Shown: positions 1,404 to 37,797 of the stretch, piece by piece | How positions within the stretch are numbered: position 1 is the first letter of the stretch | Layout: every line of letters starts with the position of its first letter | Assembly (NCBI GenBank): GCA_016199935.1 | Contig: JACQFS010000252.1 | Span: forward strand, 1 to 37,797 | Origin: Verrucomicrobiota bacterium | GTDB taxonomy: Bacteria; Verrucomicrobiota; Verrucomicrobiia; Limisphaerales; JACQFS01 | Length of the DNA: 37,797 nt | Reading direction: 5' to 3' | The notes under the pieces: generated by a model | Database searches by the model: none | Told to the model about the DNA's origin: nothing | Seen by the model: the letters and a program-made list of their open reading frames with translations, nothing else | Program-made: the position numbers and the translations under genes

Positions 1404-1431
1404 GAGCGGATCGGGGCTGGGTTTGCGAAGG

Positions 1432-4815: not shown

Positions 4816-4818
4816 GGG

Positions 4819-6531: not shown

Positions 6532-6550
6532 GCCGTGGAAGGGTTGCAAA

Positions 6551-7321
6551 TCACGGTTGTTTGGATTTGGAGGAGAAGGCCGCCGCTGTCTTGCGCGCCG
6601 TCGCTTTTTCCTCATCGGTCAAGTCGTTCCCCGGATCTCTCCCGCCCATCAACCGGTGAAACGGCGGCGCATTTCTTGCCGGATGCGGGAGGCCGAGGAT
6701 GTGCCCCAGTTCGTGCGCGACGGTGCGGCTGAAGGAGCCTTGCTGGAATTCGCCGCGCTCAACCAGCAGACATTTTTCCGGCGGCCGCTCGCCGCGCGAA
6801 GGCTTGTCGGTCCACTGTCCGAGCAGGACGCGCTTCTGCCGCGGCGTGGCATTGCCCTGAGAAGTTCCGCCGAGATAAGGAATGACGTAGATGTTCACCG
6901 CGCGCGCGTCCTCCTGCTCAACGTTGAGGATGGATTGCAACTTCCTGATCCGTTCCGGATCACCCTGCCCTTCGCTGTCGCGCGCGGCTTTCAAAAGGTA
7001 GGCGATCACCTCCGCGCGGTTTCCGCTCCGGGTCGTCGCGGAACCGACGCCGCTCAAGGTCCATTCGATCTTCGCCGCGGACCAGATGCGGTTGACCTCG
7101 GGCATTACGGTTTTCGCGATCATCTCCGGCGTGAGCCAGTTGGTCATGGCCACGCCCTGCTTCGCCATCGCGAGATCGGTCACCAGATGAAACCGCACCG
7201 CGACGCGTTGCGCGGTCTCAACCGGCACAACGGGCGAAGAACCCGCCAAAGCCCCGGCGGCGGAGAGTGCGGCGAGCGGAGCCAGCAGCGTGGCGGTGAA
7301 GATCATGAAAGTGCGTTTCAT
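6551..7321 (-). CDS. Secreted metzincin-type zinc metalloprotease
   Basis: 256 residues with a signal peptide (about 1-26). The zinc site HELGHILGLPH (His203, His207, His213, Glu204 as base) is the elongated HExxHxxGxxH motif of metzincins, and Met225 in RLMGG fits the Met-turn. The segment before it (VNIYVIPYLGG) is the usual edge strand. Length and lack of a recognisable propeptide or haemopexin domain do not point to one named subfamily. The start at 7321 gives the signal peptide; the open frame continues upstream only as overlap with the preceding gene. It lies 8 bases after the stop of the propeller gene at 7330 and 19 bases before the sulfatase start. A role in processing secreted proteins or in feeding on protein is possible. 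Confidence 0.85.
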   Translation of the reverse strand: MKRTFMIFTATLLAPLAALSAAGALAGSSPVVPVETAQRVAVRFHLVTDLAMAKQGVAMTNWLTPEMIAKTVMPEVNRIWSAAKIEWTLSGVGSATTRSGNRAEVIAYLLKAARDSEGQGDPERIRKLQSILNVEQEDARAVNIYVIPYLGGTSQGNATPRQKRVLLGQWTDKPSRGERPPEKCLLVERGEFQQGSFSRTVAHELGHILGLPHPARNAPPFHRLMGGRDPGNDLTDEEKATARKTAAAFSSKSKQP

Positions 7322-7329
7322 GGCGTGAC

Positions 7330-8847: not shown

Positions 8848-8919
8848 GCGGTTGTCTCGTCGGTCACGGATAGCGGCCGGGTAACTGGCAACCAGACTAT
8901 CAACACCGGTGCCGCGCGG

Positions 8920-10716: not shown

Positions 10717-10831
10717 GGGTTTGAATTTGAACACGGATTGAGTCAGGGGCGCAAATCGGTTGTTTGGTTACGCCGGATCTTGCCCGCGAATCACGCGAAG
10801 CACACGAAAGCATCGCGAGCCGGGCGCATCC

Positions 10832-12403
10832 TCACGGCGTCGCGCCCATCGCGCGGTAGAAAAAATTTCCGTTCGTCGCGCCGGGGTCCGTGAGCGTGAC
10901 GGTCGCGTCGCCGTTCGTGACAATGACGGCGTTGGTCACCGGCACCCACGCGAGATCGTCGAGCACCGGCGCGCGCCAGAGCGAGTAGTTGATGCTCGCG
11001 TCCTGCTGGACGGTAAGACCGAAGGTATTGCCCGTGCCGGCCAGGCCCGTGACGGTCGGCACGGCGAAGTTGGTCTGGTAGTAGCCAAATTTCAGAACGA
11101 GCGAGTCGTAGTTCGACTGCGCGCGCGCCGAGAGCGTGGTGCCGAAAAGGTTGGTCCCCTCGTAAGGGTCGCTGGCCAGATCGTAGAACTCGCTGGTTCC
11201 GCTGTTGAAGCGGATGAGTTTGAACTCGGGGTTGCGCAGCGCGCGGCCGGTCGCGGTTTGCGGAATCACACCCGAACCGAAAAGTTCCGCGTAGGCGGGC
11301 CGCGCGTAAGTGTTAGTCGTTTGCAGCGCGGGCATGAGACTTTGCGAATCAATCGTCACGCCCGCCGGCGCGCGCGCGGCGACGCTGCTGCCGGCCATTT
11401 CCAAAATCGTCGCGTAGAGGTCCACCATGCGGGCGAGGGTGTCGTTGGTGCGATTGGGACTCACCACGGCCGGGCCGCTGATGATCAGCGGAACGCGCAG
11501 GCCGCCCTCGTAGAGCGTGTCCTTGCCGTTGGTCGTCGGATACGGCGCCTGCAGCAGTTGCCGGAGCGAGCCGTTGTCACCGAGGAAAATGATGTGCGTG
11601 TTCGCGCGGTCGGGCAGCGCGGTGAGCAGTCGGCCAATCTCCGTGTCCATCGCCTCGGTCATCGCGTTGAAATAGTTCACCGGGTTGGCGTTGATGTCGC
11701 CCGTCGTGCCAGAGAGGTTCGCGTAGTGCGGGCAGAGATTCGTCGGCGGCAAATGGTGCGGCGTGTGTGGCGCGTTGAACGCGGCCCACAGAAACCACGG
11801 GTTGGTCCCGCGCGCGGCGATCCAGTTGGTGGCGTCGTTGACCAGATCGGTGGTCGCGTAGTTCGTGTTGGCCGTCGTGACGTTGTTCGAGGTCTTTTGC
11901 CAGTTGAAATAGTTGGTCAACTGACCGGTGAGGTTGCCGACGTAGTTCGTCCAGCCGCCCAGGTTCAACGGCGAGTTCGCCTGCCCGGCGAGATGCCATT
12001 TGCCGAACTGCGCGAGCTGGTAGCCAAGCGACACGTTCGTGGAAAACGCGCGCGGCAGGGTAAATTCGCTCGACGACAACGGCCCTTGCGGTCCGCCCAC
12101 CACGTCGCCGATGCCGGTGCGAAAACCATACCGGCCGGTGAGCAGGCACGCGCGCGTCGGCGAGCAAAGCGGGTTGGCGTAGGTGTAGCGGAACACCACG
12201 CCGTTGGAGGCGATGGACGCGATGTTCGGCGTGGGTGGCAGAAGCTGGCCGTTGTTCGTCGTGTTGTAGAGGGAGGAATTTCCCGCGCCGTAGTCGTCGG
12301 CGATGAGGAGTAGGATGTTGGGCTTGGCCGGCGCAGCGGCGAAGGCGGCCGAGGCCGTTCCAACCAAGAACATCAGGGCGAGCATTCCGACCGTTGCACC
12401 CAT
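10832..12403 (-). CDS. Secreted sulfatase with C-terminal W/FYR module
   Basis: 523 residues from the ATG at 12401-12403, which gives a normal signal peptide (about 1-22). The frame is open further upstream to an ATG at 12557-12559 that overlaps the stop of the adaptor gene as ATGA; starting there would add 52 Cys-, Arg- and Pro-rich residues before the signal peptide. Asp36-Asp37 bind metal; formylglycine motif C80-S-P-T-R84; GDNGS provides the later metal site. The last 80 residues (LWRAP ... DLAWVPVTNA ... FFYRAMGATP) form a module seen in several other proteins here and match the C terminus of the cut sulfatase at 37132. It is the third gene of the multicopper oxidase operon. Confidence 0.88.
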   Translation of the reverse strand: MGATVGMLALMFLVGTASAAFAAAPAKPNILLLIADDYGAGNSSLYNTTNNGQLLPPTPNIASIASNGVVFRYTYANPLCSPTRACLLTGRYGFRTGIGDVVGGPQGPLSSSEFTLPRAFSTNVSLGYQLAQFGKWHLAGQANSPLNLGGWTNYVGNLTGQLTNYFNWQKTSNNVTTANTNYATTDLVNDATNWIAARGTNPWFLWAAFNAPHTPHHLPPTNLCPHYANLSGTTGDINANPVNYFNAMTEAMDTEIGRLLTALPDRANTHIIFLGDNGSLRQLLQAPYPTTNGKDTLYEGGLRVPLIISGPAVVSPNRTNDTLARMVDLYATILEMAGSSVAARAPAGVTIDSQSLMPALQTTNTYARPAYAELFGSGVIPQTATGRALRNPEFKLIRFNSGTSEFYDLASDPYEGTNLFGTTLSARAQSNYDSLVLKFGYYQTNFAVPTVTGLAGTGNTFGLTVQQDASINYSLWRAPVLDDLAWVPVTNAVIVTNGDATVTLTDPGATNGNFFYRAMGATP

Positions 12404-12448
12404 GCGCCGCGTCGGAGCCCGGCGCGCCGGGCACGAGGAAAGTTCACC

Positions 12449-12543
12449 GGGCGGGCCGGATAAATGTTCCGGACTCCGGCCCGCCCGTTCCTGCCCACAC
12501 GGGCAAAAGTGCCTGCCGCAACCGTGGACGCCGGAGGTTGCGG
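12449..12543. repeat. Cluster of GC-rich hairpins at the start of the sulfatase gene
   Basis: Two perfect inverted repeats lie between the ATGA overlap (12556-12559) and the likely sulfatase start (12403). One is a 12-bp stem (GGGCGGGCCGGA at 12449-12460 against 12475-12486). The other is an 8-bp stem (CCGCAACC at 12516-12523 against 12536-12543). A small TGCCC/GGGCA hairpin lies between them. The stretch reads in frame but encodes a Cys/Arg/Pro-rich peptide unlike a signal sequence. It looks like a palindromic repeat inserted just after a coupled start codon, as at 37014-37129. Confidence 0.55.
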
Positions 12544-12555
12544 CGGAAAAATTCT

Positions 12556-13758
12556 TCATGGTGTCGGCAGTTTCGCGAACTCGTTCAACTGCGCCTGAGC
12601 GTCGAGCAGTAGGCCGCCGCTGGTGACTACGCGCTCGCCCGCCTTCACGCCATCGAGCACTTCGCACAGCGCGTCGCCGATGCGGCCGAGCTTCACCGCG
12701 CGTTGCTGAAAGTGGCCTGGCTCCATCTCCACAAAAACACGCGCCGCGTCGCCCGGTCGCAACACGGCGGTGCGCGGGACGGCCAGCACTTCGGGCGCGT
12801 CGAGTTCCACCACGCCCTGCGCGAAGGTGTTGTTCTTGAAACGGCCGTCGGGATTTTCCAACACCACGCGCACGCGCGTCGAACGCGTCGCCTCGTCGAG
12901 GTTCGGATGGATGAACGCGACGCGCGCGCGGACGGACTGGCCCGGCAACGACGGCGTGGTGATCGCGACGACCCGCCCCTTCTGGATGAACGGCAGGTCC
13001 GCCTCGTAGGCGGTGAAGTTGAACCACATCGTGCGGAAGTCGGCGACCTCGAACAGCTTCTCGCCCTCGCGCACATACTGGCCCTCGGCGACGAAGCTCT
13101 GGAGGATCGTGCCGCCCTGCGGCGCGAGGATGCCGAAGTGGAGGTCGTCGTCGCGCCGCTGCGGAATGGCGGCGATCTGCTCCTCGACGAGGCCGCATTG
13201 CAGCAGATGGCTCTTCGCCTTTTCAATCGCCGCGGCGTCCTGCGTCAGCGCGGTGCGGTAATCCGCCGCGCCCTTCAGCAGCGTGCGGCTGAACAGCGTG
13301 AGCATCGGCTGCCGGCGCGTGAGTTGCTCGCCCTCGCAACTCATGCCCACGCCGTCCACGCGGCCCCCGGCCGGCGCGCTGATCACGCGATGACGCGACT
13401 CGTCTTCGCCGATCATCCCGGCGACGCGCAACGTGCGCACGAGCGGGCGCGGGCGCACCTCGTCGGTGCGCACGCCGAGCGCGGTGATCGAGTCGGCGCG
13501 CAAGACGACGACGTTGCCGGCCGACGATTTCGCGGCCGCCGTTGCCTCGCGCGGGAGCGTCAGGTTCATGCCGCAAATCGTGCAGCGATTCGGCTTGTCG
13601 GATGTGATCCACGGGTGCATCTGGCACTGGCTCGCGAGGGCGCGCGTCGTTTCCTTCGCGTGCGCCTCGTTGGAAAAGTGTGCGTCTTGAAAATTTGTCG
13701 CGGCGAACCAGCCGCCCGCCGCGGCGATGATGGCGATGAGGATGGGTTTGGGTTTCAT
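12556..13758 (-). CDS. CusB-like periplasmic adaptor with N-terminal heavy-metal-binding domain
   Basis: 400 residues. One N-terminal hydrophobic segment (about 5-21) anchors or exports it. Then comes a heavy-metal-binding domain: C45-Q-M-H48-P, then C59-T-I-C62-G-M64, the pattern found in CusB-type adaptors and copper ATPases. The rest is the membrane-fusion fold: lipoyl/barrel halves around GILAPQGGTILQSFVAEGQY and VVTSGGLLLDAQAQL. Such proteins bridge an inner-membrane RND pump to an outer-membrane channel and deliver Cu(I)/Ag(I). No RND pump or outer-membrane channel is encoded in the window, so the adaptor is an orphan here. Its start is 13 bases after the multicopper oxidase stop, and its TGA overlaps an ATG of the sulfatase frame. 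An alternative start at 13782 is less likely. Confidence 0.88.
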   Translation of the reverse strand: MKPKPILIAIIAAAGGWFAATNFQDAHFSNEAHAKETTRALASQCQMHPWITSDKPNRCTICGMNLTLPREATAAAKSSAGNVVVLRADSITALGVRTDEVRPRPLVRTLRVAGMIGEDESRHRVISAPAGGRVDGVGMSCEGEQLTRRQPMLTLFSRTLLKGAADYRTALTQDAAAIEKAKSHLLQCGLVEEQIAAIPQRRDDDLHFGILAPQGGTILQSFVAEGQYVREGEKLFEVADFRTMWFNFTAYEADLPFIQKGRVVAITTPSLPGQSVRARVAFIHPNLDEATRSTRVRVVLENPDGRFKNNTFAQGVVELDAPEVLAVPRTAVLRPGDAARVFVEMEPGHFQQRAVKLGRIGDALCEVLDGVKAGERVVTSGGLLLDAQAQLNEFAKLPTP

Positions 13759-13771
13759 CGTGAGTTTGGGT

Positions 13772-15868
13772 TCACTGAACAACGGGCATTTGCACGCGGT
13801 AAAACGCGCGCGGGATCGCGAGGCGCGTGACGTTGGTCTCGACGTAATTGGCCGCGGTGCCGTCGCTCGTCACCGCGCCCACGTTCGTCCAGCTTCCGGA
13901 GGTCAGGTCGGTGGAGAACTGGACGAGATACGTCGTGTTCGTCGAGGCGCTGAACTTGAGCGCGATGTTTTCGTAGGCCTGGCTGGTTTGATTCGTGCCG
14001 GTGAAACTGTTCGTGCCCGTGCGCGCGCAGCTCGCGACGGTGAGGAGCGGTTGCGTGATTTTGTAAAAGCCGTTCGAGGCGAGCCGCGTCGCGTTCGTGT
14101 CGGTGAAGGTCGCGGTGGCGCCGAGATTCGTGGCGATGCCGACGGGCTGGAAATTTCCATTCGACGCGCCGGCGTATTGCACGGCGTAGGTCGAGCCCGC
14201 CGCGGAGGTGAACGTGAACACGATGTTCGTCTGCGCGCCCGTGCGGGTGGTGCTCGCGAGCAAAAGTTCCTCCGCCGCGTTGTTGACGACCACAAACTGA
14301 CCCATCATCCCGCCGTCTTCGTGGTGGAGGAAATGGCAATGGAACATGAACGGATTCTGGTTGCTGGCGAAGTCGTCGAACTTCGCGAGCACGGTCGCAC
14401 TCTCGTTGCGCGGCAGATAAAACGTGTCCTTCCAGCCGGACTCGTATTGGGCGGGCGGGCCGTTGTTGGAACTGGCGACCTGCGGCGTGTTCGGCCCGCT
14501 GTTGCGGTTGACGATGTTGAACTTGATGTCGTGGATGTGGAACGCGTGGCCGAACACGTTGTTGTTGGTGACGACCCATTTCTCAACGGCGTTGAGATTG
14601 ATCGTGTGGTTGAAGAGCGTCGGCGTGAAGGTGAGGTTGTTGAAACGAAACTCCGCGCCGCCCTGGCCCTGCGTGACGGAAATGTTGCGCGTGGAGGTCG
14701 CATCGTTGGTCGTCCAGTAGGTGTTCGTCACGAGCGTGGCGGGAATGTTCGTGATCGGCACCGGCGTCGTGGTCGCGTTGGTCACGACGATGTTGAGGAT
14801 CGGGAAGTTCGTGTGATTGAGCCGGCCGCCGTTGGGCTGCGCGGGCTCATTGCCAGAGGGGTTGTTCGGGTTTCCCTCGACGCCGGGAAAACCAAACTCC
14901 GGATTCGCCACCCCCGAGCCGTTGATCTCGCTGTTCCACGCCATCAGGTCCACCGAGGAACCGAGCGTGTCCGCGCCGAGGTTGAGCAGGAGTTCCACGC
15001 GCTCGCCGATCATCAGGCGCATCCGCGACACGGGCACGTTGGTATTCAACAGCCCCTGGTCGTTTCCAATCACGTAGAAAGTGCGGTTGTCGCTGAAGCC
15101 GAGATAATAGCCGCGCGCGACATCGGCGTTGAGGACGCGAAAGCGCACGACCTGCTTGGGCAGCGAGACCTGGTTGCTGATCGCGCCGTTGACCACCACG
15201 TAGTCGCCGTAATTGTCCACGACGTGATTGTAGGCGAGTTGCGTCTCGCCGTTGACGAGGTTGGTGAGAAAGCGGCGCGTCATCACGATAAGGGGGATGT
15301 CATCCACGCCGTAAGTGCGCGGCAGTGGCAGCGACGCCTCGACCGCGTCGCGCACGATGATCATGCCGGCCGCGCCCTTGGTGACCTGTTCGTGCGTCGT
15401 CTCGTGCAGGTGCGGGTGATACCAGTAAGTCGCCGCGTCATTTTTCACGTTGAACATCGGCGACCACACCGTGCCGCCGGGAATCGTCTGATGCGGCCCG
15501 CCGTCCATGATCGCGGGAATGTGGAAGCCGTGCCAGTGGACCGTCGTCGTATCGATCAGCGTGTTGGTCACGTTGATCTGCACACTGTCGCCCTTGTTCA
15601 TGATGAGCGTCGGCCCGAGGAAGTTCAGGCCGTTGTAACTGTAGGTGGTCGTGGGCGTGGCGGCGTTGGGGTAGAAATTCGGCTTGTTGAGGTTCGCCCA
15701 AAACGCCTTGTTCGTCTGGCCGAGCGAGAGATTGAAGACCGGCCCGGTCAGCACGGGCGGGATGAGGAGCTGATTGTAAGCCGACGCCGCCGCGTGCGAC
15801 GCGACCGGCGCGAGAAGGCCGGCAACCACCAGCCACCCCATCGCGACACAGGCGGATTTTGCTTTCAT
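13772..15868 (-). CDS. Secreted multicopper oxidase with two C-terminal W/FYR-type modules
   Basis: 698 residues with a signal peptide (about 1-28). All four copper-ligand blocks are present: H111-W-H113, H151-P-H153, H441-A-F-H444-I-H446, and H510-C-H512 ... H516 with axial M521. The oxidase core ends near residue 530. It is followed by two repeats of about 75 residues (STYAVQYAGASNGNFQPV ... FYKITQ, and TYLVQFSTDLTSGSWTNV ... FYRVQM) absent from ordinary CueO/PcoA/laccase proteins. Such enzymes oxidise Cu(I), other metals or phenols with reduction of O2 to water. The ATG at 15866-15868 is chosen for its signal peptide; the frame is open upstream through both operator boxes to a GTG at 15973. 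It is first in an operon with the CusB-like adaptor and a sulfatase, and carries both regulatory boxes of the window. Confidence 0.93.
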   Translation of the reverse strand: MKAKSACVAMGWLVVAGLLAPVASHAAASAYNQLLIPPVLTGPVFNLSLGQTNKAFWANLNKPNFYPNAATPTTTYSYNGLNFLGPTLIMNKGDSVQINVTNTLIDTTTVHWHGFHIPAIMDGGPHQTIPGGTVWSPMFNVKNDAATYWYHPHLHETTHEQVTKGAAGMIIVRDAVEASLPLPRTYGVDDIPLIVMTRRFLTNLVNGETQLAYNHVVDNYGDYVVVNGAISNQVSLPKQVVRFRVLNADVARGYYLGFSDNRTFYVIGNDQGLLNTNVPVSRMRLMIGERVELLLNLGADTLGSSVDLMAWNSEINGSGVANPEFGFPGVEGNPNNPSGNEPAQPNGGRLNHTNFPILNIVVTNATTTPVPITNIPATLVTNTYWTTNDATSTRNISVTQGQGGAEFRFNNLTFTPTLFNHTINLNAVEKWVVTNNNVFGHAFHIHDIKFNIVNRNSGPNTPQVASSNNGPPAQYESGWKDTFYLPRNESATVLAKFDDFASNQNPFMFHCHFLHHEDGGMMGQFVVVNNAAEELLLASTTRTGAQTNIVFTFTSAAGSTYAVQYAGASNGNFQPVGIATNLGATATFTDTNATRLASNGFYKITQPLLTVASCARTGTNSFTGTNQTSQAYENIALKFSASTNTTYLVQFSTDLTSGSWTNVGAVTSDGTAANYVETNVTRLAIPRAFYRVQMPVVQ

Positions 15869-15876
15869 ACGACCTG

Positions 15877-15910
15877 AGCGTAGCCGGCCGAACCTTAAGC
15901 GCGAGTTAAG
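15877..15910 (-). promoter_or_regulatory. PmrA-box-like promoter of the multicopper oxidase operon
   Basis: Read on the minus strand, CTTAAC (15905-15910), five bases, CTTAAG (15894-15899), then a -10-like TACGCT (15877-15882) starting 17 nt after the second half-site. Half-sites repeat every 11 bp, as OmpR-family regulators require. By the standard -10 to start distance, transcription would begin at 15870, giving a 2-nt leader before ATG. It is one of six sites with this exact geometry. Confidence 0.75.
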
Positions 15911-15967
15911 GTGGACGCTCGGAGCGGGCGCTGTTCGCCAGCATTCTTCGGCGAGCCAGGATAAAAA

Positions 15968-16034
15968 ATTCACAGCCTCATCCAAACCCGGCGGGGTGAA
16001 GAACGTCCACGAGTTTCGATTACAGTTTCGTAAT
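15968..16034. promoter_or_regulatory. 67-bp block with CopR/CusR-like operator, copy 2
   Basis: The operator ATTACAGTTTCGTAAT is at 16019-16034, 48 bases before the GTG of response regulator 1. The whole block matches 335-401 at 55 of 67 positions with no gap, including ATTCACAGCCTCAT at 15968-15981. It lies between divergent genes, so it could control both the two-component system and the multicopper oxidase operon. The GTG conserved inside the block (15971-15973) is in frame with the multicopper oxidase, but the sequence after it does not look like a signal peptide. Confidence 0.65.
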
Positions 16035-16081
16035 GCAAATCCGCTTCGGTTTCGCGCGCGACGGCGATAGCGTGGGCCGAC

Positions 16082-16753
16082 GTGAAAGTTCTCGCCGTTG
16101 AAGATGAAAGGAAGATCGCCGCCCTGATCCGCAAGGGACTCGAGGAGCACGGCTTCGTGGTGGACCTCTGCCACAACGGCGACGACGGCTACACGCTCGC
16201 CACCACGCGCAGCTACGACGCCATCCTCCTCGACATCATGGTGCCCGGCCGCGACGGCCTCAGCATTTTGCGCCAGCTCCGCGAGCAGAAAAATGCCGTG
16301 CCGGTGATCCTGCTCACCGCGCGCGGCGAGTTGAACGAACGCGTCGAGGGCCTGAACCTCGGTGCGGACGATTATCTCACCAAGCCCTTCTACATTGATG
16401 AACTCGTCGCGCGCCTCCACGCCGTGATGCGGCGTAAGACCGGCGATCAACTCAGCCTGCTCCAAGCCGGCGACCTCACCGTGAACCTCCTCACGCGCGA
16501 GGTGAAGCGCGGCGCGGAGAAGGTGGAGCTGACCACGCGGGAGTTTGCGTTGCTCACCTACCTCCTGCGCTCGCCCGGCCGCGTCTTCACGCGCACACAG
16601 ATTTGCGAGCACGTGTGGAACTACCACCATGATCCCGGCACGAACCTCGTGGATGTTTACGTGCAACGCGTCCGCAAAAAAATTAGCGACGGCCCGGAGC
16701 AGCCGCTCATCGAGACCGTGCGCGGCGTGGGCTACCGTTTTTCAAAGGCGTAA
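16082..16753 (+). CDS. OmpR/CusR-family response regulator 1
   Basis: 223 residues starting at GTG. The receiver domain (1-115) has the acidic pair at Glu7-Asp8, phospho-acceptor Asp51 (LLDIMVPGRDG), a conserved Thr in LLTARG and Lys101 (LTKPF). A winged-helix OmpR-type DNA-binding domain follows (about 128-220; TREFALLTYLLRSPGRV and VDVYVQRVRKKI). Spacing and sequence resemble the CusR/CopR heavy-metal branch. The CopR-like palindrome directly upstream suggests it binds its own promoter. It forms an operon with the kinase at 16853, from which it is separated by a large inverted repeat. The kinase's family and the neighbouring copper genes support copper or another heavy metal as signal; that part is inference. 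Confidence 0.9.
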   Translation: MKVLAVEDERKIAALIRKGLEEHGFVVDLCHNGDDGYTLATTRSYDAILLDIMVPGRDGLSILRQLREQKNAVPVILLTARGELNERVEGLNLGADDYLTKPFYIDELVARLHAVMRRKTGDQLSLLQAGDLTVNLLTREVKRGAEKVELTTREFALLTYLLRSPGRVFTRTQICEHVWNYHHDPGTNLVDVYVQRVRKKISDGPEQPLIETVRGVGYRFSKA

Positions 16754-16755
16754 GG

Positions 16756-16848
16756 AGCCACGGATGAAACGCGGATTGAACACGGATAATTGCAATCAGG
16801 TTGCCACTCCCTCTTCATCCGTGTTTCGTCCGTGTTCCATCCGTGGCT
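16756..16848. repeat. Inverted repeat between response regulator 1 and its kinase
   Basis: Left arm 16756-16789 and right arm 16814-16848 are inverted copies of about 34 bases with roughly five or six mismatches, built from repeats of a short ACGGATGAA-like word, with a loop of about 24 bases. It begins just after the regulator stop and ends four bases before the kinase ATG. Elements of this word (ATCCGTG ... CACGGAT) are, from memory, common dispersed intergenic palindromes in Verrucomicrobiota and Planctomycetota. As RNA it would form a long hairpin inside the operon. Confidence 0.8.
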
Positions 16849-16852
16849 AAAA

Positions 16853-18310
16853 ATGAAAACCAACTCCTTCCGCCTCAAGCTCGCGCTGCTCTCCGCGGTG
16901 ATCTCCGGCGGATTGCTCATCGCGGCGGGCGTGGCGTTCTGGCAGCTCACCTACCGCATGGACCTGGCGCGCATTGACCGCGAACTGCGCAACCTCGGCA
17001 ACCCGCAGCTCGAACGCATCAACGGCGGCGATCACTGGGTGCGCTTCGAGGGCGCGCTGGGATTCGTCGCCGGAACGGACCGGCAGCCGTCGTTCATCTT
17101 GTGGGTCAAGCATGAGGACCGCGTGCTGCACAAGTCCAAGCACTGGCCGGCAGGCATCGAGCCGGAATCTTTTCCTGAACTCACCGCTTACGAGCCGCCC
17201 TTCGTGCTCGAACCGGGCAAGCCGCTCCCGCCGCCTCCGCGACGGAACGAGCCAATTACACCGCGCAACCCGGAGTTGCCGCGCAAGGAGCCGCAGTTTT
17301 CCACGCACAGCGCTGATGGCCGGATGTGGCGCGTCGCTGTGATGGGCAATCCCTACATGACCCTCATCCTCGGCGCGGACCTCAGCGAGTTCATGACCGG
17401 CATGACGAGGCTGCGCAACGCCTACCTCGCCGCGCTGCCGGTCGTGCTGCTGCTCGTGGCGGCGGGCGCGTGGCTCGTGGCGAGCCGCGCGTTGCGACCC
17501 GTCACCGCGCTCACACAGACCGTCGAGGGCATTACCGCGCGCGGACTGGACCAGCGGCTCACCACACGCGCGCACGAGGCGGAGTTCGCGCGGCTCATCA
17601 CCGTCTTCAACCAGATGATGGACCGGCTGGAGAAAAGTTTTCACCAGGCCACGCGCTTCAGCGCCGACGCGTCGCACGAATTGAAAACGCCGCTGACGAT
17701 CTTGCAGGGCGAACTGGAGGAGGCATTGCAATCGGCCACGTCCGGCTCGACGGAGCAGGCGCGCTACGCGCAGTTGCTTGAGGAAATCCAGCGGCTCAAA
17801 GCCATCACGCACAAGCTGCTCCTGCTCTCCCTCGCCGACTCCGGCCGCCTCAAGCTCGAACTCCAGCCGCTCAACCTCACCGAGGCCGTCGAGGAAGTGC
17901 TGGAGGACGCCGGGATTCTCGCCGGTGAACTCGCGCTGGAAAAATCCCTTCAATCCGGCGTGCGCATCGGCGCCGACGCGGACCTGTTGCAGCAGGTTCT
18001 GCAAAACCTCGCGGTCAACGCGATCAAATACAACCGCCCCGGCGGCCGCCTCCGTTTCGAACTCACCGCCGACGCCACGCACGCCACGTTGCGCGTCGGC
18101 AACACCGGCCCCGGCATCGCCGAGGCCGATCGCGTGAAAGTTTTCGAGCGGTTCTTCCGCGGCGACCCGTCGCGCAACCGCGCGGTCACGGGCATCGGCC
18201 TGGGCTTGAGCCTCGCGCGCGAAATCGTGCGCGCGCACCACGGTGATCTCGTTCTGGAATCCTCAGCGCAAGACTGGACGGTCTTCGCCGTGCGGCTGCC
18301 CGCCAGTTGA
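16853..18310 (+). CDS. Heavy-metal-type sensor histidine kinase 1
   Basis: 485 residues. First membrane segment about 9-31, a periplasmic sensor of about 150 residues with a Pro-rich stretch (PLPPPPRRNEP), second membrane segment about 187-207, HAMP linker (RPVTALTQTVEGI), phospho-accepting His275 in ASHELKTPL, then the ATP-binding domain (NAIKYN N-box, GNTGPGI, and GIGLGLSLAREIV G-box). The order and size fit the CusS/heavy-metal sensor kinase family. The start is the ATG immediately after the right arm of the inverted repeat; no Shine-Dalgarno-like sequence is visible. It ends 20 bases from the stop of the convergent mannanase gene, with no clear terminator between. Confidence 0.9.
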   Translation: MKTNSFRLKLALLSAVISGGLLIAAGVAFWQLTYRMDLARIDRELRNLGNPQLERINGGDHWVRFEGALGFVAGTDRQPSFILWVKHEDRVLHKSKHWPAGIEPESFPELTAYEPPFVLEPGKPLPPPPRRNEPITPRNPELPRKEPQFSTHSADGRMWRVAVMGNPYMTLILGADLSEFMTGMTRLRNAYLAALPVVLLLVAAGAWLVASRALRPVTALTQTVEGITARGLDQRLTTRAHEAEFARLITVFNQMMDRLEKSFHQATRFSADASHELKTPLTILQGELEEALQSATSGSTEQARYAQLLEEIQRLKAITHKLLLLSLADSGRLKLELQPLNLTEAVEEVLEDAGILAGELALEKSLQSGVRIGADADLLQQVLQNLAVNAIKYNRPGGRLRFELTADATHATLRVGNTGPGIAEADRVKVFERFFRGDPSRNRAVTGIGLGLSLAREIVRAHHGDLVLESSAQDWTVFAVRLPAS

Positions 18311-21105: not shown

Positions 21106-22035
21106 CTACTGCGGCGGGCCGGGCGGGCGGCCGCCGGGCGGGCCTTTCTTTTGTCCGGGCGGGCCGCCCTTGCCCTTGCCTCTTCCGCCAGGACCACCGG
21201 GGCCGGGGCCGGGGCCGTGCTTCATGAAACTCGGATCGGGCGTGCCGCGCCACAGGCGTGACGCGAACGGAAATTCCGCCGTGAGACAGTAGTAGTAGGT
21301 GCCCTGCGGAAATTCCGGTGTCACGCCGAAGCGGCCGTTGCACTCGTCGAGCTCGCCGCTGCCTTTCACGAACTCGTAGTCGGCCGTGAACGCGCCGTCG
21401 TATTTGCCACCGGGACCGTCGGGTGCACCGGGGCGCGTGCCTTTTTTCAGTTGATGGCTCGAACGCATTTTCTTCAGCGCGCTCTTCGCGTCCTGCGCGT
21501 CGGCGTAGGCGTAGCTCGTGTAAATCGGGAAGCCGTCGCCGGCCCAGCCGACGTGCAGCATCTTCTTCCCGTCCCCGCCGAGGCCCGCGATGAGGCCGGT
21601 GGGCAGGGCGTGATAATGATACGCGCCGGTCGGCTGCACGTGCGCGAGGTGTTCGTCGAGGCCGAGGTTCATCGAACCGCCGATGGCCTCGTAGCGCCAC
21701 CCTTCGCCCCAGACCTCCGCCGTGCCGGCCTCGAAGGGCACGCCGTTGAGCGCGACGCCGAACCAGCCGCGCGCGGGACTCGGCTGCGCGGCGACCTGCG
21801 GCTTGGTCGGCACGGTGAAACTATATTTCTGCTCCGAGATCGTGTTCGGATTGCCGCGGCGCGGAAACTGGCCCGGCGTGTGATCCGGGATGCCATTGGC
21901 CTCGATGACGCGCTGCTCGCCGCGCAGCGTGATGGTGACCCGGTTGGTGAACGTGCGGCCTTGGGCGGAACCGCACGCGGCGGTGAGCACGGTGACCAGG
22001 GTTGCGACGGCGAATCGGGGCGAGAGAATTTTCAC
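21106..22035 (-). CDS. Secreted YHYH-domain protein with Gly/Pro/Lys-rich tail
   Basis: 309 residues from a GTG at 22033-22035. A hydrophobic export signal ends in LTAACGSA, so it may be a lipoprotein, although Thr is at the usual Leu position. The diagnostic GAYHYHALP lies near residue 147, preceded by ANGIPDH and VALNGVPFEAG and followed by a DGFPIY segment, all typical of YHYH proteins, whose biochemical role is unknown. The last 35 residues are almost only G, P, K, R and Q. Another GTG 15 bases earlier is possible, but the predicted transcription start of the PmrA-like promoter falls exactly on the chosen GTG. The GH26 gene follows in the same operon. Confidence 0.85.
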   Translation of the reverse strand: MKILSPRFAVATLVTVLTAACGSAQGRTFTNRVTITLRGEQRVIEANGIPDHTPGQFPRRGNPNTISEQKYSFTVPTKPQVAAQPSPARGWFGVALNGVPFEAGTAEVWGEGWRYEAIGGSMNLGLDEHLAHVQPTGAYHYHALPTGLIAGLGGDGKKMLHVGWAGDGFPIYTSYAYADAQDAKSALKKMRSSHQLKKGTRPGAPDGPGGKYDGAFTADYEFVKGSGELDECNGRFGVTPEFPQGTYYYCLTAEFPFASRLWRGTPDPSFMKHGPGPGPGGPGGRGKGKGGPPGQKKGPPGGRPPGPPQ

Positions 22036-22041
22036 GCCCGC

Positions 22042-22075
22042 ACGATACACGGGTGAACCTTAAGGGCGAATTAAG
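22042..22075 (-). promoter_or_regulatory. PmrA-box-like promoter of the YHYH/GH26 operon
   Basis: On the minus strand: CTTAAT (22070-22075), TCGCC, CTTAAG (22059-22064), an exact match to the classical CTTAAT-N5-CTTAAG PmrA box (from memory), then TATCGT (22042-22047) 17 nt after the start of the second half-site. Six bases separate the -10 from the GTG start, so the messenger is predicted to be leaderless. Confidence 0.78.
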
Positions 22076-32055: not shown

Positions 32056-32100
32056 GCTGTGAAAAACTTTGCGGGAAGATTCGCGACGGACCCGCGGCAA

Positions 32101-32134
32101 TTTAATGAGTCCTTAATCCGCCATCGGCTAGCCT
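32101..32134 (+). promoter_or_regulatory. PmrA-box-like promoter of two-component system 2 (autoregulation)
   Basis: On the plus strand: TTTAAT (32101-32106), GAGTC, CTTAAT (32112-32117), then TAGCCT (32129-32134) 17 nt after the second half-site starts. It is divergent from the giant-gene box, 62 bases centre to centre. Being in front of the regulator itself, it is the main reason to assign the six-site regulon to response regulator 2. Predicted +1 is 32141. Confidence 0.75.
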
Positions 32135-32205
32135 CCGTCTTCGCCATGCTAATTGACGTGTCGCCGCCGCCCGCCGGTGCTAGAAATCCGGCCGCCACCG
32201 CGCTC

Positions 32206-32856
32206 ATGAGAATCCTGGTCGTCGAAGATGAACCGCGCCTGCTCCGCAGCCTCGCCAAGGCGTTGCGCGAGGCGGGCTACGCCGTGGACACCGCCGACGC
32301 CGGCGACGAGGGACTCCACAAGGCGACGACCTACGACTACGACGCCGTGGTGCTCGACGTGATGCTGCCGAACCTCGACGGCTGGCAGTTGCTCGAAAAA
32401 CTCCGCGAGGAAAAGCAGACGCCCGTGCTGATGCTCACCGCGCGCGACGCGAGCCGCGACCGCGTGCGCGGCCTCGACACTGGCGCGGACGATTATCTCA
32501 CCAAGCCATTCGACCTCGATGAACTTCTCGCCCGCCTGCGCGCCATCATCCGCCGCTCGGCGGGACAGGCGAAGTCGGCGATTCAACTCGGCAACGTCAC
32601 ACTCGACACGCGCGCCCGCTCGGTCACGCGCGACGGCGAGGCCGTCACGCTCACCGCGCGCGAATACGCCATCCTCGAATACCTCGCGCTGCACCGCGGC
32701 GAAGTCGTCTCGCGCACGACGCTTTACGAGCACCTGTTCGATGAGACTGACGACACGCTCTCGAATCTCGTGGACGTGCACGTGTTCAGCATCCGCAAGA
32801 AGCTCGGCGCGGACGTGATCGCCACGCGGCGCGGGCAGGGATACTGCGTGGAATGA
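32206..32856 (+). CDS. OmpR-family response regulator 2 (PmrA/QseB-like)
   Basis: 216 residues from ATG 32206, where family similarity begins (MRILVVEDEPRLL). Acidic pair Glu7-Asp8, phospho-acceptor Asp51 (VLDVMLPNLDG), Thr in LMLTARD and Lys100 (LTKPF); then the winged-helix domain (about 125-215; TAREYAILEYLALHRGEVV, VDVHVFSIRKKLG). An in-frame ATG at 32146, five bases after the predicted transcription start, would add a Pro/Ala-rich stretch of 20 residues; since the regulon favours very short leaders this longer form is a real alternative. Operon with the kinase at 32956, separated by an inverted repeat. The PmrA-like box on its own promoter suggests positive feedback. Confidence 0.9.
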   Translation: MRILVVEDEPRLLRSLAKALREAGYAVDTADAGDEGLHKATTYDYDAVVLDVMLPNLDGWQLLEKLREEKQTPVLMLTARDASRDRVRGLDTGADDYLTKPFDLDELLARLRAIIRRSAGQAKSAIQLGNVTLDTRARSVTRDGEAVTLTAREYAILEYLALHRGEVVSRTTLYEHLFDETDDTLSNLVDVHVFSIRKKLGADVIATRRGQGYCVE

Positions 32857-32867: not shown

Positions 32868-32944
32868 CGAATGACGAATGGCGAGCCGGCGAGGCAACCG
32901 GCGCGCAACTGCTTTCTCATACGACACTCGCCATTCGTCATTCG
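32868..32944. repeat. Inverted repeat between response regulator 2 and its kinase
   Basis: Perfect 18-bp arms (CGAATGACGAATGGCGAG at 32868-32885, inverted at 32927-32944) around a 41-base loop that itself holds a CCGG-CCGG mini-stem. Extra AATGACGAAT words extend both sides (about 32857-32949). It fills nearly all of the 99 bases between regulator stop and kinase ATG. Its sequence is unrelated to the repeat at the same place in two-component system 1. Confidence 0.85.
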
Positions 32945-32955
32945 TCATTGACCCG

Positions 32956-34437
32956 ATGTTCGCGAACTCCATCCGCTTCCGTTTGCAATTGTGGCTGGGC
33001 TTTCTGCTCGTCGCGGTGCTGTGCGGATTCGGCGTGACGGTTTATCAGCTCCAGCGAATCCATTTGCTCGGCCAGATTGACGAGGATCTCGAGCGCCGTG
33101 TCGCCATCCTCAGCAGCGCCGTGCGCGGCGGACCTCCGCCGGAGCCGGGGCAGAAGCGCACGGACTTCGAGAAAACCGGCAAGCGTCCACCCCCGCCGCC
33201 CGATGCCGGGGCGAAGACGACGCGCACCGGCCCGCGCGAGATCAGGCTCTCGCCCGAATCGGAGAGCCTCTTCGATGAAGGCCGGGCGGGTGCGCATTAC
33301 TACATGGTCTGGTATCGCGATGGCGCGCTGCTCAAGCATTCCACCAACGCCCCCGCCGAACTCGCGCGCCCGGAACGCGCCGACCGCGACACACGTCGGC
33401 ACTCACGAATGCGCGGCGAGTTCCGTGAAGCCTGGCATTTCACCGAGCTTGGCGATTGCGTGCTCGCCGGCCGCTCCATCGCGGCGCACGAGGCCGCGAT
33501 GGCACGATTCAGCCTGTGGCTGCTCGCCGCAGGCGGCACGGTGCTCGCGCTTGGACTGGGCGGCGGTTGGTGGCTCACCACGCGCGCCATCGGGCCGGTG
33601 GAGGAAATCAGCGCCGCGGCCAGCCGCATCTCGGCGGGCAATCTTTCCGAGCGCATTCACACCGCCGATTCGAAGAACGAACTCGGCCGGCTCGCGGGCG
33701 TTTTGAATTCCACCTTCGCCCGGCTCGAAGCCGCGTTCGCGCAGCAGAAGCAATTCACCGCCGACGCCTCGCACGAACTGCGCACGCCGCTCGCCGTGAT
33801 GATTTCCGAGGCGCAGACCACGCTCACCCGCGAACGCACCGCCGCCGAGTATCGCGAGACGGTGGAAGCCTGCCTCGACACCGCGCAGCAGATGCGCCGG
33901 CTCACCGAGTCGCTGCTCGAACTTTCCCGCTTCGACGCCGGGCAGGAGGACATCCGCCGCAAGCCCGTTGACCTCGCGGAAATCGCGCGCACGTGCGTCG
34001 AACACATCCGACCGCTCGCCGGTCCGCGCGGCCTCAAAATTCACTGCGCCCTCGCCCCGACCGCCGCCCTCGGCGGTGCCGAACGCCTCGCCCAAGTCAT
34101 CACGAACCTCCTCACGAACGCCATTCACTACAATAAAGAGGGCGGCGAAATCCAAGTCGCAACCTCGGTGGAAAATGGCTCTGCCGTCCTGAAGATCACC
34201 GACACAGGCCGGGGCATCGCGCCGGAGGATTTGCCGAATATTTTCAAACGCTTCTTCCGCGCCGACTCGTCGCGCTCGCGCGCCAACGGCCACGCCGGCC
34301 TCGGCCTTGCCATCTGCAAAGCCATTGTGGACGCGCACGGCGGGACCATCGGCGCCACGAGCACTGTCGGGGAAGGGACGACGGTCACCGTGCAGTTGCC
34401 CGGCTCGCGGGACGGGGCTCACGCCTCCGGGGTGTAA
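32956..34437 (+). CDS. Sensor histidine kinase 2
   Basis: 493 residues. Membrane segment 1 about 10-32; periplasmic part about 150 residues with a Pro-rich, Arg/Lys-rich stretch (KRPPPPPDAGAK); membrane segment 2 about 186-210; HAMP (RAIGPVEEISAAASRI); phospho-accepting His273 in ASHELRTPL; ATP-binding domain with NAIHYN N-box, TDTGRGI, and GHAGLGLAICKAIV. It is a typical HAMP/HisKA/HATPase kinase of the group paired with OmpR regulators; the sensor region gives no ligand. The ATG follows the inverted repeat by 11 bases. The last 19 bases overlap tail-to-tail with the convergent dioxygenase gene. Confidence 0.92.
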   Translation: MFANSIRFRLQLWLGFLLVAVLCGFGVTVYQLQRIHLLGQIDEDLERRVAILSSAVRGGPPPEPGQKRTDFEKTGKRPPPPPDAGAKTTRTGPREIRLSPESESLFDEGRAGAHYYMVWYRDGALLKHSTNAPAELARPERADRDTRRHSRMRGEFREAWHFTELGDCVLAGRSIAAHEAAMARFSLWLLAAGGTVLALGLGGGWWLTTRAIGPVEEISAAASRISAGNLSERIHTADSKNELGRLAGVLNSTFARLEAAFAQQKQFTADASHELRTPLAVMISEAQTTLTRERTAAEYRETVEACLDTAQQMRRLTESLLELSRFDAGQEDIRRKPVDLAEIARTCVEHIRPLAGPRGLKIHCALAPTAALGGAERLAQVITNLLTNAIHYNKEGGEIQVATSVENGSAVLKITDTGRGIAPEDLPNIFKRFFRADSSRSRANGHAGLGLAICKAIVDAHGGTIGATSTVGEGTTVTVQLPGSRDGAHASGV

Positions 34438-35078
34438 TCCAGCACCAAGTCGAAGTCGGCCGTCAACTCGCCCGCGCGTGAACCGGGCATCGGCTTGAAC
34501 TCGGTCATCACGGCGGCGCGCAGCTTCGGGTCGGTGATGCTGCGGAAAATGCCGTCACGCTCGTTGCCGGGATGTCCCTTGATGAGCATCTGCGTCGTGA
34601 GCACGCGCCGGCTGCCGCGGTTGATGGCGAAGTGAATGTGCGGCGTGCGGCCCGGATACGGCACCGGCTTGATGGTGCGGAAATAATACTGGCCCCGGGC
34701 GTCGGTGAGGAAACGGCCGTAGCCCTGGAAATTCCGGTCGCGATTGGCGGCATTGCCGGAGCGGCTGTGGATGTAGGCGCCGTGCTGGTCGCACTGCCAG
34801 ATTTCCACGACCGCATTGCGCACGGGCGAACCGGACGCGCTGAGGATGCGGCCGCTGAGGTGCGTGATCTCCCCGATGGCCGGCGTGGTCTGGTTGTTGA
34901 TGATCAGCAGGTCGTTGTCGGTGTCGAGCGGGAGCCTGTCCGGATAGAACGGCCCCTCGGTCATCCGGGGCGTGCGCGTGAGCGCCTCGGCGAAGGCGCC
35001 GGGCGCCGCGAGCGCGGCGGCGCTGAACGTGAGGCCGCGGAGAAACTGGCGGCGGGTGTTGGAAAGAATGGTGATCAT
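34419..35078 (-). CDS. Tat-exported intradiol dioxygenase-like protein (third copy)
   Basis: 219 residues; twin-arginine signal NTRRQFLRGLTFSAAALAAP with AFA before the mature start. Predicted Fe(III) ligands Tyr102 (QHGAYIHSRS), Tyr141, His147 and His149 (VPYPGRTPHIHF). Closest in the window to the protein at 26235. Its ATG overlaps the stop of the MbnP-MbnH fusion gene (ATGA), so the two are translationally coupled and probably functionally linked. Its stop lies inside the end of kinase 2 on the other strand. Unlike the other two dioxygenases it has no visible PmrA-like promoter of its own; its operon promoter lies beyond the window. Confidence 0.88.
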   Translation of the reverse strand: MITILSNTRRQFLRGLTFSAAALAAPGAFAEALTRTPRMTEGPFYPDRLPLDTDNDLLIINNQTTPAIGEITHLSGRILSASGSPVRNAVVEIWQCDQHGAYIHSRSGNAANRDRNFQGYGRFLTDARGQYYFRTIKPVPYPGRTPHIHFAINRGSRRVLTTQMLIKGHPGNERDGIFRSITDPKLRAAVMTEFKPMPGSRAGELTADFDLVLDYTPEA

Positions 35079-37018
35079 GGGATGGCCTTTGGTTTGGCGG
35101 ATGATTGTGTGTCGGGTGTGTTGCTGGAGACGACGGGCTTGGCGGAGAGGTAACGCTCATCGGTCAGACTTCGCAAGAACGCCACGAGCGCGCGCCGTTC
35201 CTCCGCGCCCAGCGGCACGCCGCCGTCGGGATGCTTGGCGAGATTCGGGTCGAGCGTGGGACTGCGCTTCAGGCCGGTAGCGTAGTGCGCGATGACTTCC
35301 TCCAAAGTGGCGAAGCGGCCGTCGTGCATGTAGGGCGCGGTGAGCGCGACGTTGCGCAGGCTGGGCGTGGAAAACTTTCCGCGGTCGGACTCGGCGGCCG
35401 TGACCTTGAAGCGACCGGGGTCGGTGGCGTGGCGTGCGTCGAGGCCGTTGTTGTGGAACTGGTGGTCGGTGAAGAGCGCGCCGCCGTGGCAGTGGAAGCA
35501 ATCCGCGCCGCGCTGGCCCGAGCGCGGCTCGTATTCGGTGAAGAACAGTTCGAAGCCGCGCCGCTCGTCGGCCGTGAGCTCGGCCTCGCCGCGCATCGCG
35601 CGGTCGAACTTCGAGTCGAAGCTCGTGAGCGTGAGCAGGAAGTTCTCGATGGCGAGGCCGATTTTTTCCGGCGTGATCTCCGGCGAGCCGAAGGCGGTGG
35701 TGAAGAGCGCGGGGTAATCCTTTTCTGAGGTAGCAGCCGACGTGAGGAGGCTCTGATCAAATGCGGAGTGCGGAGTGCGGAGTGTGGAATCAGAATTCAG
35801 AGCCTCCTTACGTCGGCTGCTACCGAGCTTGGTGACCACGCGCTCCAGCTTCTCATCCATCTCGGTGTGATCCTGAATCGGCATGAGCGCCTGTGCGCGG
35901 AGGCTTGGCGCGCGGCCGTCCCAGAAGAAGCTCGTCTTCCACGCGAGGTTGAAAAGCGGCATCGCGTGGCGCGTGCCGACCTGCCCGTCCACGCCGAGGC
36001 TGTAGCGGCGCGGATCGGTGAAGGCGTGGCGCGCGTCGTGGCACGTGGCGCAGGACTGCGTGTTGTTGCGCGAGAGCAGCGGCTCGTGAAAAAGTTTTTC
36101 GCCGAGCGCGACGCGTTCTTCGAGCAGCGGATTGTCGCGCGGCAGGTCGGGCACGGGAAATTTTCCGCTCATCTGAAATTTGAACGGCGTGAACTTCGCC
36201 GGGAGATACAGCGGCTTCACCGGTGCGCGCTTCGCGACGACGGTGGCGTCGGTGATGCCGCGGAGCTGGAAGGCGTTCGCGAGATTCGCCCTGAGCGCGG
36301 CGGCGATGGGATCGCCCTCGCGCGAGTGGGTCGAGTCGCCGTCGCGCGCGGGCGAGACGGGGCGCGGGGCGTTGAACAGCGCGGCGAGATCGAACGCGAG
36401 GCCGACGGCGGCGGGTTGATCGGTGAGCGCGAGTTCGAGCGGAACGGTGATGACGGTGCGATTCCAATCGTTGGCGAAGTGGTAGGAGAATCCGCGCATC
36501 GGCGGAGCGCGGAGCTCCTGCTCCGCACGTTGGGATGCGGGTTGAGTAACACGCGGAGCTGGAGCTCCGCGCTCCGTGAACATCCCCTCCACCGCCAGAA
36601 AGATGTAGCCGCTCTGCCACGTCCAGTGCAGGCCGTTGAGGTTCGGGTTCAGCGGATGATCGGCGGCGTGCTTCGCGGGGTCGCCTTTGTTCGTTGTGGA
36701 GTCGAGGCCCACGGCGAAACGCAGCGCGCGATATTCGCCGGCAGGAATTTTTTCCAGCGTGACGGTGCTGCGGCGCGCGGCGGCATCCATCCACGCAATC
36801 TGCCCGGAGAGTTCCACCCAGCCGCCGGATTTTTTCTCAAGCGCGAACCCGCCGAGCAGATAACTCAGTCGCGTGATGGAAATGGTCTCCCCGCTGCGCA
36901 GCGGGTAGCGGAGCGAGTCGAGCAGGAGCCGCGCACCGTCATGCGTGGGGGTGATTTCGAGTTGAAGTTCGGCGGCGCTGGCGACAGTCGTCAACAGGGC
37001 GAGAATGGCGGCGCCCAT
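35075..37018 (-). CDS. MbnP-MbnH fusion: copper-binding MbnP domain joined to di-haem MauG-like peroxidase
   Basis: 647 residues from ATG 37016-37018, which gives a clean signal peptide (1-15). An upstream ATG at 37133-37135 overlaps the preceding sulfatase stop (ATGA), but would add 39 Arg-rich residues encoded by a palindromic repeat. Residues about 16-255 match the MbnP pattern: SYLLGGFAL, then HWTWQSGYIFLAVEG with Trp132/Trp134, then GFSYHFAND. Residues about 275-625 are a di-haem cytochrome c peroxidase/MauG-type enzyme with C323-A-T-C-H327 and C507-F-H-C-H511. In methanotrophs MbnH is a separate protein that oxidises a Trp of MbnP to kynurenine to make a copper site. Two in-frame palindromic inserts encode residues about 149-172 and 399-432. 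Followed by a coupled dioxygenase gene. Confidence 0.85.
   Translation of the reverse strand: MGAAILALLTTVASAAELQLEITPTHDGARLLLDSLRYPLRSGETISITRLSYLLGGFALEKKSGGWVELSGQIAWMDAAARRSTVTLEKIPAGEYRALRFAVGLDSTTNKGDPAKHAADHPLNPNLNGLHWTWQSGYIFLAVEGMFTERGAPAPRVTQPASQRAEQELRAPPMRGFSYHFANDWNRTVITVPLELALTDQPAAVGLAFDLAALFNAPRPVSPARDGDSTHSREGDPIAAALRANLANAFQLRGITDATVVAKRAPVKPLYLPAKFTPFKFQMSGKFPVPDLPRDNPLLEERVALGEKLFHEPLLSRNNTQSCATCHDARHAFTDPRRYSLGVDGQVGTRHAMPLFNLAWKTSFFWDGRAPSLRAQALMPIQDHTEMDEKLERVVTKLGSSRRKEALNSDSTLRTPHSAFDQSLLTSAATSEKDYPALFTTAFGSPEITPEKIGLAIENFLLTLTSFDSKFDRAMRGEAELTADERRGFELFFTEYEPRSGQRGADCFHCHGGALFTDHQFHNNGLDARHATDPGRFKVTAAESDRGKFSTPSLRNVALTAPYMHDGRFATLEEVIAHYATGLKRSPTLDPNLAKHPDGGVPLGAEERRALVAFLRSLTDERYLSAKPVVSSNTPDTQSSAKPKAIP
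35729..35824. repeat. Palindromic repeat inserted in frame in the peroxidase domain
   Basis: Arms of 28 bases (35729-35756 and 35797-35824) are inverted copies with one mismatch; the 40-base loop carries three tandem CGGAGTG words. It encodes about residues 399-432 (GSSRRKEALNSD ... DQSLLTSAAT) between LERVVTKL and EKDYPALF, which would otherwise join naturally. The frame is kept. I recall near-identical repeats and encoded peptides scattered in Verrucomicrobiota genomes, but cannot check here. Confidence 0.88.
36503..36576. repeat. Second palindromic repeat, in frame in the MbnP domain
   Basis: Arms of 24 bases (36503-36526 and 36553-36576) are inverted with one mismatch around a 26-base loop; sequence differs from the other repeats. 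It encodes roughly residues 149-172 (ERGAPAPRV ... RAEQELRAP), an Arg/Ala/Pro-rich loop just after the conserved FLAVEG motif and before GFSYHF. Confidence 0.87.
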
Positions 37019-37129
37019 TTGGACTGCGCCGGCCGAGCGCAGCGACGACGGCGCTTTCGCGTGGCAAACCACGATCCGCGCGCCACGAAAGCGGCGCCGC
37101 GCTGCGCTTGCCACCGCGCTCCAAATGGC
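37014..37129. repeat. Third palindromic repeat, at the 5' end of the fusion gene
   Basis: Outer inverted ends CCATTTGGA near 37015-37023 and TCCAAATGG at 37120-37128 flank further imperfectly inverted blocks (GCGCTTTCG ... CGAAAGCG). It lies between the ATGA overlap with the sulfatase (37132-37135) and the signal peptide; its end supplies the ATG at 37016-37018 used as start here. Confidence 0.75.
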
Positions 37130-37131
37130 AC

Positions 37132-37797
37132 TCATGGCGTGGTGGCCATCACACGGTAGTAGAGCGCCGCGCTGACGGCGTTGGAGTCGCGGAGAATCAC
37201 GCTCGTCGTGCCGTTGGTGATGATGGTCGCGTTCGTCACGGGTGCCCACGCAAGGTCATTGCCGAGCAGGGGTGCGCGCCAGAGCGCGTAGTTGAGGCTG
37301 GGGTTGCGCGTGACGGAGACGTTGAACACAACGTTGCTCAGTCCGTTGCTCAGCATCGTCGGCGCCGCCAGCACGGATTGAAAATCGGCGAGCCGCAGCA
37401 CGAGCGCGTTGTAGTTCGACCAGGCCACGGTGCCGGTCGCGAGCGGCAGCAGGTTCGCGCCCTCGTAGGGATCGGCGGCGAGGTTGAAGAAAAATTCCGT
37501 GCCGTTGGTCTGGCGGATGAGCTTGTAGTCGGCGTTGCGGATGGCGCGGCCGGAGTTCGTCGTGAACGTCGCGTTCGTGCTGTAATACTCGCTGAACGTG
37601 TAGCGCGCCACGTCGGGCTGGTTTTGCAAAACGGGCAGGAGACTTTTCGAGTCCACGGCGTTCGTCGAGTTCGCGAGCGTGGCGGCGACGTTGATGCCGG
37701 CGAGTTCGAGGATCGTGGAGAACACATCCACGAGATGCACCGGCGTGGTGTTCGTGCGTCCGGGGTTCACCACCGCGGGGCCGCAGATGAAGAACGG
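37132..37797 (-). CDS. Secreted sulfatase, C-terminal part (cut by window edge)
   Basis: The last 221 codons of a sulfatase; the catalytic formylglycine region lies beyond the window. FFICGPAVVNPGRTNTTPVH, DVFSTILELAG, FFFNLAADPYEGANL and the C-terminal module (LNYALWRAPLLGNDLAWAPV ... LYYRVMATTP) align closely with the C-terminal half of the sulfatase at 10832-12403, so the two are paralogues. Its TGA overlaps an ATG upstream of the MbnP-MbnH fusion, so it is the gene before the fusion in that operon. In both loci the paralogue is next to copper proteins. Confidence 0.88.
   Translation of the reverse strand, partial: PFFICGPAVVNPGRTNTTPVHLVDVFSTILELAGINVAATLANSTNAVDSKSLLPVLQNQPDVARYTFSEYYSTNATFTTNSGRAIRNADYKLIRQTNGTEFFFNLAADPYEGANLLPLATGTVAWSNYNALVLRLADFQSVLAAPTMLSNGLSNVVFNVSVTRNPSLNYALWRAPLLGNDLAWAPVTNATIITNGTTSVILRDSNAVSAALYYRVMATTP

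Follow-up and report, generated by a model that had tools for sequence, protein, structure and literature searches.

Gene Organization at the Locus

The DNA analyzed here, referred to throughout as the window, is the whole 37,797-nt stretch of contig JACQFS010000252.1 (GCA_016199935.1) from a host of the phylum Verrucomicrobiota. Near its end, on the minus strand, lies a gene that encodes MbnP and a MauG/MbnH-type di-heme peroxidase as a single-chain fusion (35075 to 37135). The frame from 37018 down to 35075 is uninterrupted, with zero internal stops. The initial annotation of this DNA had placed the start at 37018; that open reading frame is intact, but an in-frame ATG at 37135, which overlaps, within the sequence ATGA (37135 to 37132), the stop codon of the sulfatase gene that lies upstream, competes with it, and the start is uncertain between the two candidates. 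The sulfatase is represented by its C-terminal end only (37132 to 37797, minus strand; SGSH_C, E = 2e-9), as the gene is truncated at the contig end. On the other side, the fusion stop codon overlaps by 4 nt the start of a Tat-like intradiol dioxygenase gene (34419 to 35078, minus strand; PF00775, E = 1e-27). Because its candidate start at 37135 overlaps the sulfatase stop and its stop overlaps the dioxygenase start, the fusion gene probably lies between these two in an operon.

The proposal that an MbnP-like domain and a complete peroxidase share one polypeptide was borne out by profile searches. The Pfam MbnP family, which was to be sought in residues 16 to 255, matched residues 17 to 217 (PF20243; 36368 to 36970, minus strand; E = 4.1e-29) with 102.3 bits against a curated cutoff of 27. 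The NCBIfam MbnP model, TIGR04052, gave 33.3 bits and did not reach its cutoff of 140. The di-heme peroxidase domain spans residues ∼285 to 621 (35156 to 36166, minus strand) and was recognized by PF03150 (CCP_MauG) from residues 300 to 479 onward, with an E value of 1.2e-52. Among NCBIfam models, that for MbnH (TIGR04039) ranked first (E = 5e-66; 223 bits against a cutoff of 362.85) and that for MauG next, all below their curated cutoffs, and the best sequence match among solved structures was MbnH (6e1c). A whole-genome search of the source genome returned the fusion as its sole MbnP match.

The Fused Form Is the Rule for MbnP in Verrucomicrobiota

We searched for PF20243 in 58 genomes of the window's order and 388 of the phylum, which gave matches in 14 and 22 genomes, respectively. 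Nearly all of these matches reside in ORFs of about 580 to 730 residues that also contain a WxW motif and two CxxCH motifs, and the remainder are at contig ends or are broken copies. Thus, the fused form is the rule for MbnP in Verrucomicrobiota, accounting for nearly every MbnP found, a point that goes beyond the initial annotation. Because dozens of independent genomes carry the identical architecture, an assembly or frame artifact can be rejected, and the fusion of MbnP with a MauG/MbnH-type enzyme in one chain is real. In one genome outside the window's class, the fusion is split between its two domains by a transposase-like gene, with a YHYH gene adjoining (G178, L153:3731-7546), and in another the frame is broken (G165).

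Scanning genome contigs, we confirmed 552 relatives, of which the best 80 belong to Verrucomicrobiota wherever the record title gives a group; they include Chthoniobacter flavus Ellin428 and Roseibacillus persicicus. Unfused adjoining pairs were found in Methylocystis, Ideonella, Paracoccus, Trichormus and Deinococcus, representing Proteobacteria, Cyanobacteria and Deinococcus. A quickly built peroxidase-domain tree placed 74 fused and 5 unfused enzymes on opposite sides of a branch with 99% SH-aLRT support. A single origin of the fusion is therefore likely, though not proven by an unfused sample of five in which Deinococcus forms a long branch. We found no published mention of an MbnP–MbnH fusion in the literature searched, which took in little of the subscription literature.

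Predicted Structure and Conserved Residues

MbnP and MbnH are otherwise separate proteins, and the heme enzyme is required to build the copper site. The fusion resembles MbnP and MbnH of Methylosinus trichosporium (7l6g, 6e1c) and their relatives in domains, in the WxW motif and ligand His, and in the heme motifs, axial Tyr and inter-heme Trp, and the folds match significantly. An AlphaFold2 model of the full fusion, built with 60 sequences, had a pLDDT of 85.9, and its top Foldseek matches were MauG (3rn0) and MbnH (6e1c). The MbnP domain modeled alone reached a pLDDT of 92.5; its sole significant match in the PDB was MbnP (7l6g; E = 6e-10), the next structure having an E value of 0.06. The CorA/MopE fold was absent among the 50 matches listed for this domain. 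At the profile level, hhalign aligned the fusion MbnP domain with canonical MbnPs at a probability of 98.9 (E = 3e-17).

To assess conservation, residues were counted in an alignment of 60 fusions. The tryptophan motif HWTWQSGYIF and the two heme motifs named in the initial annotation are present where it had placed them. His131-Trp132-x-Trp134 is encoded at 36617 to 36628 (minus strand, as for all residues below), and Trp132, the first Trp of WxW and the predicted kynurenine precursor, is found in 60 of 60 fusions. His131 is retained in 58 and Trp134 in 59, and the second Trp of WxW is missing in two relatives (L121 and L155). The heme motifs are CATCH (residues 323 to 327; 36038 to 36052) and CFHCH (residues 507 to 511; 35486 to 35500), the latter within an ADCFHCH stretch that is conserved across the family. 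Tyr579 (35282 to 35284), at the position of the MauG-type axial ligand, is present in all 60 fusions and is likewise invariant in a six-enzyme alignment. Trp366 (35921 to 35923; 60/60) aligns with the Trp of MbnHs at the inter-heme position, and Asp236 and Glu386 are invariant as well.

The copper ligands of MbnP are reportedly a His, a Met, a solvent molecule and kynurenine. We take His204 and Met266 to be the protein ligands described for MbnP; in agreement, both are invariant in the five canonical MbnPs compared, as are several Cys residues. MAFFT and hhalign concur in pairing His180 of the fusion (36479 to 36481; 60/60) with His204, and the THS motif, which holds His231 (36326 to 36328; 59/60), with the CMS motif that holds Met266. 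Hence, if His204 and Met266 are MbnP ligands, the predicted site of the fusion would consist of two His residues, His180 and His231, and Trp132 or the kynurenine derived from it. The MbnP domain of the fusion contains no Cys, and the four-Cys motif of canonical MbnPs is absent. With a His at the Met position and without the four Cys, the site differs from the one in MbnP, a change that the initial annotation had not noted. The fusion further differs from the MbnP/MbnH systems in being one chain rather than two genes, in the lack of methanobactin genes and in its shorter second-heme loop.

The copper site of CorA/MopE is formed by two His, a water and kynurenine (PMC3912023). In these methanotroph systems, CorA/CorB and MopE/SACCP, a di-heme peroxidase is co-encoded with the two-His and kynurenine site (PMC3912023), but the two are separate proteins, in contrast to the fusion. 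On the ligand roles suggested by the alignment, the predicted ligand set of the fusion would be that of CorA/MopE placed in another fold, that of MbnP. Deinococcus radiodurans offers a further comparison: its locus (L133), the sole plasmid-search record covering 80% of the fusion, encodes an MbnP-family protein, a cytochrome c peroxidase, CopC and CopD in separate adjacent genes, and its MbnP-family protein lacks the four-Cys motif, as does the fusion.

A YHYH Protein Is the Conserved Neighbor

The initial annotation had listed a multicopper oxidase, a heavy-metal-binding protein, YHYH proteins and dioxygenases among the neighbors, and all of these types were recovered in the window. The window YHYH gene (21106 to 22050, minus strand; PF14240, E = 2e-66) is 13 kb from the fusion and adjoins a gene for a GH26 protein. 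Its ortholog in the closest relative (L086), with 82.5% identity, comes immediately behind the fusion gene, which it overlaps by 4 nt; next in line there are an AhpC/copper-monooxygenase-like gene and the gene of a GH26 protein. The AhpC/copper-monooxygenase-like gene (L086:10796-12823) encodes 675 residues with AhpC/TSA and Cu2_monoox_C matches and is possibly a copper monooxygenase partner.

Across loci, the family seen most often upstream of the fusion was YHYH (PF14240; 25 of 39 scanned). With a dedicated profile, a YHYH gene was found on the same strand and within 400 bp of the fusion at 36 of 74 loci, and within 6 kb at 40, while the source genome contains six matches in 5 Mb. This adjacency is scattered over the tree, with at least 18 label changes. 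YHYH proteins near fusions retain an H-x8-H-x-H motif and a further near-invariant His, which plausibly form a metal site. The linkage, which the initial annotation had not singled out, suggests that YHYH is the conserved partner of the fusion.

YHYH domains fused to sulfatases also occur near fusions (L086:15-4454 and L155:3301-5406). Given such proteins, the sulfatase gene upstream of the window's fusion, truncated as it is at the contig end, may itself encode a YHYH–sulfatase fusion. Sulfatase was considered as a general partner and rejected: with separate models, sulfatase lies within 400 bp at 8 of 74 loci and YHYH at 36, and a 47-locus "sulfatase" cluster proved to be YHYH and sulfatase ORFs merged. 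In the window, the segment from 435 to 13198 (minus strand) contains genes of a polymer-degradation type, namely three sulfatases, a DUF6797/cytochrome protein and a SASA esterase.

The wider copper or aromatic oxidation pathway proposed for the neighborhood held in part. On the copper side, the window encodes a response regulator (32059 to 32856, plus strand) and a sensor kinase (32878 to 34437, plus strand) whose closest models are cztR_silR_copR and cztS_silS_copS, both below cutoff; a heavy-metal-binding motif (HMBD; 13561 to 13629, minus strand; PF19335, over its cutoff); and a multicopper oxidase (13772 to 16666, minus strand; real start probably well within the ORF) for which CueO was the best NCBIfam model, below cutoff. 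Beside the oxidase, a second sensor kinase (HAMP, HisKA and HATPase_c) and a possible response regulator ORF lie at 16082 to 18310 on the plus strand. Compared with 73 other fusion loci, relatives of the CopRS-like response regulator and sensor kinase were found near 12 and 13, respectively, and those of the multicopper oxidase near only 4; copper-gene neighbors are not general across fusion loci. Three intradiol dioxygenases are present in the window, but the Tat-like start suggested for them as a group was seen on the copy adjoining the fusion. No dioxygenase relative was found near any of the 73 other fusions, which led us to reject an aromatic oxidation pathway as a general feature. YHYH is the conserved partner, whereas the dioxygenases are peculiar to the source genome.

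A Model for Copper-Site Formation and Its Alternatives

We consider it probable that the gene specifies an exported single-chain MbnP/MbnH whose heme domain generates Kyn132, with Kyn132, His180 and His231 binding copper and YHYH as a partner. After export and heme loading, peroxide, or oxygen and a reductant, would activate the C-terminal di-heme domain to a high-valent state, which would then convert Trp132 to kynurenine through long-range electron transfer, either in the same chain or from one chain to another. Kyn132, His180 and His231 would take up copper, and the fusion, alongside a YHYH protein with conserved histidines of its own, would handle copper in the periplasm or outside the cell. 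Kynurenine formation, copper binding, ligand roles, action in cis or in trans and the role of YHYH are parts of this model that we infer from sequence. The domain and fold matches, the conserved residues, the fused form across the phylum, the YHYH linkage and the copper-type genes of the window speak for the model; the NCBIfam scores below cutoff, the missing CMS Met and four Cys, the loss of the second Trp in two relatives, the two in-frame repeats in this copy and the scarcity of copper-gene neighbors at other loci speak against it. By hole hopping, MauG oxidizes a substrate Trp that lies tens of angstroms away. Given this precedent, a Trp far from both hemes, which the initial annotation would have counted against the proposal, is a weak objection, and distance alone does not argue against Trp132 oxidation. 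We offer more tentatively, as a possibility and not an expectation, the full picture of a self-maturing copper protein that forms its kynurenine in cis, binds copper through two His and kynurenine in an MbnP fold and acts with YHYH proteins, sometimes fused to sulfatases, as a copper-handling partner family not previously described.

MauG shares with the fusion the di-heme fold and signature residues, but its substrate is a different protein, methylamine dehydrogenase, and its product is TTQ, unlike the kynurenine proposed for the MbnP domain. Alternatively, the di-heme domain of the fusion might modify another protein, such as the adjacent YHYH protein, the MbnP domain acting as a docking or copper-sensing scaffold. 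The YHYH linkage, the invariant Trp and Tyr residues of YHYH proteins and the dispensability of Trp134 in some relatives are consistent with this alternative. However, it does not require the strict conservation of Trp132, His180 and His231, and an adjacent YHYH gene is missing at about half of the loci; we regard it as unlikely. An ordinary peroxide-scavenging cytochrome c peroxidase carrying an accessory copper-binding domain appears more doubtful still: CCP_MauG membership and a general likeness to bacterial peroxidases would fit, but the top matches are MbnH and MauG, the Tyr at the axial position is found in 60 of 60 fusions and the enzyme is fused to a known kind of substrate.

Two palindromic repeats lie in frame in the window's copy of the gene, repeat A (96 bp; residues 399 to 430; 35729 to 35824, minus strand) and repeat B (74 bp; residues 148 to 172; 36503 to 36576, minus strand). 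They represent two different dispersed families, each with about 40 genome places, and as RNA would fold into hairpins near −55 kcal/mol. Copies are found in L162 to L181. Of 18 examined, most are within long ORFs, and several are read in frame inside a Pfam domain or between two, with Trp_halogenase, PSD1 and DUF7133 among the domains concerned; this behavior resembles that of Rickettsia palindromic elements. The two repeats could impair this copy, and part of insert A has a pLDDT below 50; yet decay of the window's copy within an otherwise active family is improbable, as the frame and all catalytic residues are retained, the inserts fall between conserved segments and similar repeats stand in frame in other genes with recognizable domains.

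With the preferred model of a kynurenine-forming fusion, enzyme and substrate would be available as a single chain, making reconstitution of a complex unnecessary and rendering kynurenine formation, the electron path and the role of kynurenine in copper binding directly testable, while the Met-to-His swap provides a natural comparison. For the YHYH family (PF14240), linkage to the fusion gives a first functional lead. Most members of Verrucomicrobiota are not methanotrophs, and the fusions would extend candidate kynurenine–copper sites to this phylum.
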